Shown piece by piece: positions 11 to 8,891 of a DNA stretch of 32,277 bases (position 1 is the first letter of the stretch; each line of letters starts with the position of its first letter). The notes beneath the pieces are model-generated. The model was given only the letters and a program-made list of their open reading frames with translations. It ran no database searches and was not told the origin of the DNA. Made by a program: the position numbers and the translations under genes. The DNA comes from an uncultured Verrucomicrobia subdivision 3 bacterium (GTDB lineage Bacteria > Verrucomicrobiota > Verrucomicrobiia > Limisphaerales > UBA11358): the NCBI GenBank assembly GCA_903835255.1, contig CAILMI010000039.1, positions 1 through 32,277 on the forward strand. Direction: 5' to 3'.

Positions 11-210
11 TTTTAACACGAACGCCGAAAGAGGAGTTTGTGCCAGGGTGGTATGGACAGCCGCGCTGCGGCGTCCCCGTCGCCGAGCGCAGCGTCAGGC
101 GACGGAAAGCAATCAGGCGAAGCGTGGCGTCTTACCTCGTTCGTTCCGCCCTCCCGGGTGGGGGCATCGCAGCGCGATGCCCCTACCGTTGCTTCGGCGT
201 TCGGTTTGAA
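11..210. repeat. Multi-hairpin interspersed repeat, copy A (MITE-like)
   Basis: A segment of about 190-200 bp that recurs, diverged, at 7905-8098. Its ends are inverted repeats: CGAACGCCGAA at 19-29 pairs perfectly with TTCGGCGTTCG at 193-203, and partial pairing continues outward. Inside are CGCTGCG (64-70) with CGCAGCG (88-94), CGGAA (103-107) with TTCCG (144-148), and a perfect 10-bp hairpin GGGGCATCGC/GCGATGCCCC at 161-183 with a 3-base loop. Blocks shared with copy B include GAAGAGGAGTTT (written AAGAGGAGTTT here), the GCGCTGCG-CGTCC block, GACGGAA, and the right-hand block GCGATGCCCCT through CTTCGGCGTTCGG. I see no convincing reading frame that both copies share. It could be a non-autonomous mobile element or a REP-like structured repeat. 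No clear target duplication is visible. Confidence 0.7.
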
Positions 211-7863: not shown

Positions 7864-7904
7864 TCAGACCGTCTCTCGCAAACGATTTCATGAACATGAC
7901 CGGC

Positions 7905-8098
7905 CTAAACCCGAACTCCGGAAGAGGAGTTTTCGCCCGCGTGGCAGGGTTAGCGCGCTGCGCCGTCCTCGCCCGCGGTCAGCGCGCGTCAGGAAGGGTG
8001 ACGGAAGGGACGTCCGCAAAAGTTCCTTCCGCGCCGGATACGGCGCGGGGTCATCGCTGCGCGATGCCCCTGCCCGCTTCGGCGTTCGGCTTAAAACG
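7905..8098. repeat. Multi-hairpin interspersed repeat, copy B (MITE-like)
   Basis: Second copy of the repeat at 11-210. The ends pair: CCGAACTCCGGAAG (7911-7924) against CTTCGGCGTTCGG (8077-8089), with one mismatch and one bulge. Internal hairpins are GCGCGCTG (7953-7960) with CAGCGCGC (7980-7987), CGGAAGG (8002-8008) with CCTTCCG (8025-8031), GCGCCG/CGGCGC with loop GATA (8031-8046), and GGGG-T-CATCGC with GCGATGCCCC (8047-8070). Several stems differ in sequence from copy A yet still pair, so structure seems to matter. It sits immediately before the start codon of the prepilin-like gene, and it is open in that gene's frame back to an ATG at 7890. Confidence 0.7.
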
Positions 8099-8111
8099 TA
8101 GCTCTCCCGAA

Positions 8112-8891
8112 ATGGCGGGCCGCCGTCATACCGGCTTCACGCTGATCGAGCTGCTCGTCGTGATTGCCATCATCGCCATTCTCGCCGCCCTGCTGCTCCC
8201 GGCGCTGAATCGGGCCAAGCAGCGAGCTTATATGACTGCCTGCCTGAACAACCTCAAACAGCTGCAGCTTTGCTGGCTGATGTATGCCCAGGACAACGAG
8301 GAGGTGATCCCCCCCAACAACTATGTGTATCAAGTCACTCTGGGCAGCACCAATAACCCCACCCTGGGCGAGGATGAAATGACCTGGTGCCGGGGATTGG
8401 CACCCCTGGAAACGAATGAAATCAGCGAGGCCACCTCGCTGCTCTTCCCCTACAATCGCAGCGCGGGGATCTACCATTGCCCGTCGGACCGCTCGACCGT
8501 GGCGGGGGCTCCGCAGATGCTCCGCAAGCGCAGCTACAACATGAGCAACAGCGCCAACTGCGCCACGGACAGCCACTTCAGGAAAACCTCGGAGATCCGG
8601 GTTCCCACCGGCCTTTTCATCTTCATCGACACGAACGAAAACGACATTTGGGATTCCACATTCGGGGTCATCCCCGCCGACTACCGCTACTGGTCGGACT
8701 TCTGGCTGGACATCCCGGCCGATCGCCATCTGAGGGGAGGCAACTTCACCTTCGCGGATGGCCATGTGGAACACTGGAAATGGCGGGCGCCCAAGGGCGA
8801 TCTGTCGCTCGGACAGCCCGCCTACAGCGCGGAGGATTTACAGGACTTGCGCCGCTTGCAGCAGTGCATCAAGGGCGCAGGGGGCAATTGA
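8112..8891 (+). CDS. Prepilin-like protein with N-terminal methylation motif and H-X9-DG domain (DUF1559-type)
   Basis: 259 aa from the ATG at 8112. Seven residues later comes the type IV prepilin signal [18 protein letters not shown], so a prepilin peptidase would cut after the glycine, and the hydrophobic helix continues to [11 protein letters not shown]. Near the C-terminus the H-X9-DG motif is complete (the histidine of RHLRG, nine residues, then DG in FADGH). Proteins of this kind are abundant in Planctomycetes and Verrucomicrobia and resemble type II secretion pseudopilins; their role is poorly known. ATGs at 7890 and 7896 are in frame and would add about 74 residues encoded by repeat copy B. 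I prefer 8112 because prepilin leaders are usually short. Confidence 0.85.

Follow-up and report, generated by a model that had tools for sequence, protein, structure and literature searches.

Repeats of a Limisphaerales bacterium that probably combine a REPIN-type core with IS1380-type ends

REPINs are usually described as tied to their own RAYT gene, the RAYT being a Y1/HUH single-strand transposase which recognises GTAG plus a hairpin. In E. coli TnpAREP, the residues W-Q-x4-E-H-x2-R read the GTAG tag (PMC6006769). REP units have also been described in larger assemblies, as in the double inverted repeats of P. putida and P. fluorescens, where degenerate GTAG-1 units are joined to unrelated stem-loops (PMC3733652). 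Among DDE insertion sequences, IS1247 of the IS1380 family generates a 5-bp target duplication (PMC3281130), and the Tn3-derived TIMEs are miniature elements that make mosaics (PMC4133298). Here we describe two repeats of an uncultured Verrucomicrobia subdivision 3 bacterium which are, in our strong expectation, two-layer hybrids of such systems: a RAYT-type REPIN captured in IS1380 ends, and subsequently mobilised in trans by an IS1380 transposase.

The window analysed is a stretch of 32,277 nucleotides of this genome. The first-pass annotation had reported two repeats, copy A within 11-210 and copy B within 7905-8098, and both were located there; the ends of each copy are mutually inverted repeats, as it had also proposed, those of A reading CACGAACGCCGAAA ... 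CTTCGGCGTTCGGT. The features of the two copies, and of the gene that follows B, are as follows.

12-16, no strand: left target-site duplication of A, TTTAA, with one mismatch against the right copy (consensus TTNAA)
17-205, forward strand: copy A, IS1380-type miniature element, 189 bp
17-30, forward strand: left terminal inverted repeat of A, CACGAACGCCGAAA (consensus CCCGAACTCCGAAA)
50-187, forward strand: REPIN-type core of A, comprising H1, H2, a spacer, H3, H4 and a CTACC end; the hairpins lie at about 57-78 (H1, GTAG-tagged), 78-104 (H2), 144-163 (H3) and 160-182 (H4)
192-205, reverse strand: right terminal inverted repeat of A
206-210, no strand: right target-site duplication of A, TTGAA
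7905-7909, no strand: left target-site duplication of B, CTAAA, with one mismatch against the right copy
7910-8090, forward strand: copy B, IS1380-type miniature element, 181 bp
7941-8075, forward strand: REPIN-type core of B, belonging to a diverged subfamily and homologous to the core of A; the A-core model scores it at 49.5 bits
8091-8095, no strand: right target-site duplication of B, TTAAA
8112-8891, forward strand: gene for a prepilin-like protein with an N-terminal methylation motif (PF07963)

The repeat is not confined to the window, and the possibility that no further copies would be found has fallen away: BLAST returned 61 matches to A and 50 to B in the host genome (a draft, 97.5% complete), and the end motif AACCCGAACTCCGAA matched 182 times with up to two mismatches, against nine matches for its reversed control. 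A covariance model built from A-type cores also recovers B (49.5 bits, E 8.5e-10), which shows that the two copies belong to the same family and have diverged within it. Mapping the modules of the host loci read revealed the order end, core, end recurring throughout, with three core subfamilies (A, B and C), tandem composites such as end-B-A-end, and neighbouring elements separated by a few bases; the elements span 181-300 bp and contain no transposase gene. Many core copies are found no more than a few hundred bases away from contig ends (contigs C2, C8, C33, C43, C44, C48, C57 and C70), from which we suspect that the repeat probably breaks the assembly, and that its copy number is underestimated. 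Copy A is itself located at one contig end, where it adjoins another repeat. This second repeat, GTAGGGCGGGCAGTCCCCTGCCCGCC with its flanks (222-279), stands directly beside A; the host loci read contain 41 copies of it, often adjoining or within the IS1380 ends. Hairpins resembling it also occur in another genome (L367 of G009), where a Y1 transposase lies a few hundred bases away.

The outer layer consists of the terminal inverted repeats CCCGAACTCCGAA and a 5-bp TTNAA target duplication. When inward-facing ends 40-420 bp apart were paired, identical 5-mers flanked 22 of the resulting 76 host pairs, some of which are certainly spurious, compared with a mean of 5.9 and a maximum of 14 after shuffling. 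This identity is specific to five bases, as lengths of 3, 4 and 6-9 gave between zero and one match among the same 76 pairs. Duplications that depart from the consensus yet match on both sides, namely TTAAG, CTGAA, ATAAT, TTTAG and ATAAA in the host, are hard to explain otherwise, and elements of other genomes likewise carry five-base duplications: TTTAA, TTGAA, TTCAA, CTTAA, TTCAG and TTTAC. For many of the 76 pairs no convincing duplication is evident, which would be expected if many were old or mispaired.

The ends also identify a likely parent. When public genomes were searched for the end motif, 31 stretches matched, nearly all labelled as Verrucomicrobia or subgroups thereof, and one of these (L255) holds a transposase gene between two such ends. 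Its product matches PF13701, which we take to be the IS1380 family. Similarly enclosed PF13701/IS1380 transposase genes are found at L258 130-1651, with TTAAA on either side; at L261 841-2351, where a 474-aa frame has the same ends on both sides; and at L259 1437-2966. Close homologues of this transposase are scattered among genomes of the order, and none of its kind was found in the host assembly, a draft that is 97.5% complete. Because the same ends flank IS1380-family transposase genes in related Verrucomicrobia, we interpret the outer layer as a non-autonomous IS1380-type element, which an IS1380 transposase would presumably mobilise in trans; the elements and the insertion sequences have only their inverted ends in common, and differ in subterminal sequence. 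Other parents were considered and rejected. The flanks do not bear out a 3-bp TNA duplication of the IS5/IS1031 kind, their duplication being the 5-bp TTNAA; no IS5/IS4 transposase (PF01609) with matching ends was present in the host or its relatives; and for IS982 (PF13612) there were weak matches alone in relatives, and none in the host. In other Verrucomicrobia the same IS1380 ends surround quite different palindromic interiors (L230:921-1084, L251:4765-4929, and loci L233, L242, L249 and L254), with L249 and L254 carrying an identical element in two assemblies. One IS1380-type end, on the reverse strand at L247:1743-1756, borders a CRISPR array whose repeat is GGACCATCCCCACGCGGGTGGGGAGAAC.

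The inner layer is a core of 135-150 bp, in which a GTAG-tagged hairpin marks each end and two further hairpins lie between. It bears the mark of a REPIN, two inverted hairpins tagged GTAG (or GYAG, GTRG), with some variation in the window, where A reads GTAT at one end, and B reads GCAG instead. With no more than 55 places per genome scored, the core model matched in at least 28 of 59 relatives, including the core-rich genomes G004, G020, G022 and G023, in which the end motif has no match. Among 41 cores read in relatives, sharp edges (GGTAGGG and CCCTACC) abut unrelated DNA directly; of the 41, L358 of G005 is bordered left and right by degraded IS1380 ends, and in three more a single end matches weakly, with three mismatches. 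Identical flanks of 4 bp or more surrounded none of 37 stand-alone cores, which thus show no target duplication. One genome (G019) contains both stand-alone and wrapped cores.

A tblastn search, using as query a RAYT found in G024, located RAYT genes beside cores in five genomes of two families (G004, G014, G044, G007 and, from the other family, G052). In G004 (L389) and G014 (L314) a core stands on either side of the gene; in G044 (L419) its neighbours are a core and, at a contig end, a partial core; and in G007 (L295) and G052 (L353) it adjoins a single core. These proteins resemble E. coli TnpAREP (PDB 4er8), and the three tested score 89-97 bits with NF047646, above its cut-off of 80. Their HxH and Tyr positions are conserved, as are the W-Q-x4-E-H-x2-R residues. 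That the core stands alone beside RAYT genes leads us to regard it as a REPIN that exceeds the usual size and encloses two internal hairpins; a RAYT may cleave it, or transfer its strand. No RAYT was seen near host cores or end motifs when their neighbourhoods were searched with the matching RAYT protein, and a genome-wide search of the host with PF01797 found none; as RAYTs of this clade fall short of the PF01797 cut-off, the host may nonetheless encode one. The Y1 transposases that PF01797 did find in relatives do not adjoin cores of this type. A RAYT gene of G024 (L388:896-1620), whose score also falls under the PF01797 cut-off, has short GTAG REPINs (GGTAGGGACGGCTCGCCGAGCCGTCC...) on either side and a prepilin-like gene downstream.

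These findings bear on two rival accounts. The family might be a plain IS1380 MITE whose interior is palindromic by chance, its likeness to a REPIN being irrelevant. The ends and 5-bp duplications would indeed suffice for spread in the host, and the disparate interiors found within the same ends elsewhere in Verrucomicrobia are congenial to this reading; but it leaves unexplained why the same core occurs alone in relatives, without these ends and beside a RAYT in five genomes of two families, and we consider it improbable. Conversely, a RAYT might have moved the whole unit throughout, the outer repeats being extended REPIN ends comparable to the TIRs of a 'TIRtron' (Di Nocera 2013). RAYT genes flanked by long inverted repeats other than REPs are known (PMC3733652), and the core is RAYT-linked; however, a Y1 transposase would not be expected to leave 5-bp target duplications, and in other genomes the outer repeats enclose an IS1380-family DDE transposase, so that this account seems to us scarcely tenable.

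Structure is conserved within the core. Both copies fold better than all of 200 dinucleotide shuffles (z of -5.5 for A and -3.5 for B), and the first-pass annotation's suggestion that stems vary by paired changes is borne out beyond chance: across 38 host copies, 36 double-change cells were counted against 13.7 after shuffling, a value reached in none of 500 shuffles, and across 40 cores from several genomes the count rose to 128 against 40.5, with 16 of 32 pairs changed on both sides. Relatedness inflates such counts, but a control in which partners were slid, which retains relatedness, yielded at most 11 double-change cells in the 40 cores; the signal is weaker within host copies than across genera, although present. 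The first-pass annotation was right that the ends pair and enclose conserved hairpins, of which four local ones are supported, but the main helices of A are not the stems it named: CGCTGCG/CGCAGCG links the tips of two adjacent hairpins. The paired changes fit a history in which the hairpins were maintained when the core served a RAYT as substrate; copying of one arm from the other would yield the same pattern, and could add to the effect of such maintenance.

Paired changes could instead record selection on an RNA fold, were the repeat a dispersed structured RNA or cis-regulatory element, as the first-pass annotation had entertained. In favour of this reading, the changes are strong, and B sits between an M23 peptidase-like gene and the prepilin-like gene, so close upstream of the latter that B plus its duplication stops 16 bp before the likely ATG. 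An effect of B on expression of this gene is possible. Against it, host copies occur in both orientations and varied contexts, many of them in clusters, and no Rfam family matched the window above its gathering score. As precise mobile-element ends and RAYT linkage account for both copies and hairpins, a structured RNA is unneeded as an explanation, and very improbable. The longest frame over the prepilin-like gene (7890-8891) starts upstream of B, and crosses the whole element without a stop.

Taken together, we propose that the core arose as a RAYT substrate, a large REPIN with two opposed GTAG-tagged hairpins around two more; that in the host lineage the ends of an IS1380-family insertion sequence came to enclose it; and that the resulting non-autonomous cassette would have been copied around the genome by an IS1380 transposase in trans, leaving 5-bp TTNAA duplications. 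The common ends, the duplications, the enclosed cores of the host, the duplication-free lone cores, the adjacency of RAYT genes and the paired changes can each be read from sequence; the order of events, core first and then capture, is presumed. Under this model, two of the origins offered by the first-pass annotation each hold for one layer: 'MITE-like' suits the outer, with its inverted ends, 5-bp duplication and IS1380-family parent with the same ends, while 'single-strand transposition substrate' suits the inner, as the REPIN of a Y1/HUH RAYT in relatives. In the wrapped type of G019, the IS1380 end abuts the opposite side of the core from that in the host A type, which suggests that there may have been more than one capture event; the orientation of the wrapped core is likewise reversed between G019 and the host A/B type. 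More broadly, IS1380 ends might constitute a general shell which repeatedly captures REPINs in Verrucomicrobia, allowing spread that is RAYT-independent and horizontally transferable. Two more wrapped elements, L250 and L252 of other genomes, do carry GTAG-tagged hairpin pairs, but because both sides are tagged in just two of 13 other wrapped elements, we hold this generalisation only tentatively, and rather doubt it.

On our reading, one and the same REPIN occurs both by itself next to a RAYT and within DDE insertion-sequence ends, in the latter case with target duplications. This makes it testable whether a REPIN can escape RAYT dependence by hitch-hiking on another transposon, and whether selection on its hairpins continues after such a switch. 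The RAYT/REPIN system is also extended by an unusually large form with four hairpins in Limisphaerales-type Verrucomicrobia, and RAYTs of this kind are missed when PF01797 is used alone.

The claim that no described family matches the repeat stands for the element as such, which was not found in the literature searched, but not for its layers, both of which are of known kinds (REPIN or GTAG-REP, and IS1380 MITE). With REPINs and GTAG-tagged REPs served by RAYT/TnpAREP (PMC3116915, PMC3733652, PMC6006769), the core shares two inverted GTAG-tagged hairpins, high copy number, lack of duplications when alone, and position beside a RAYT carrying GTAG-reading residues; it differs in its length of 135-150 bp and its two extra conserved internal hairpins, the second nearly invariant (CGTCGCCGAGCGCAGCGTCAGGCGACGG), and host cores differ further in being mostly enclosed by IS1380 ends. 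With IS1380-family elements and their derivatives, A and B share a PF13701 parent transposase, inverted repeats starting CC, and a 5-bp duplication as in IS1247 (PMC3281130), whereas elements of their type differ in having 181-300 bp, no transposase, an interior of REPIN origin and a preference for TTNAA targets. TIMEs (PMC4133298) are alike in that transposon ends alone mobilise the unrelated DNA between them, but those ends are of the Tn3 family rather than IS1380, and TIMEs have no REPIN core. A REPIN within DDE insertion-sequence ends and duplications, with a RAYT-linked form in relatives, was not found in the open-access literature searched, and the combination of the two layers looks new. 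The nearest description is of the REP/stem-loop structures of P. putida (PMC3733652): there, as in P. fluorescens, REP units are likewise fused with other inverted repeats in hundreds of copies, but the joined repeats flank RAYT genes, whereas here the partner is a DDE insertion-sequence end with target duplications.
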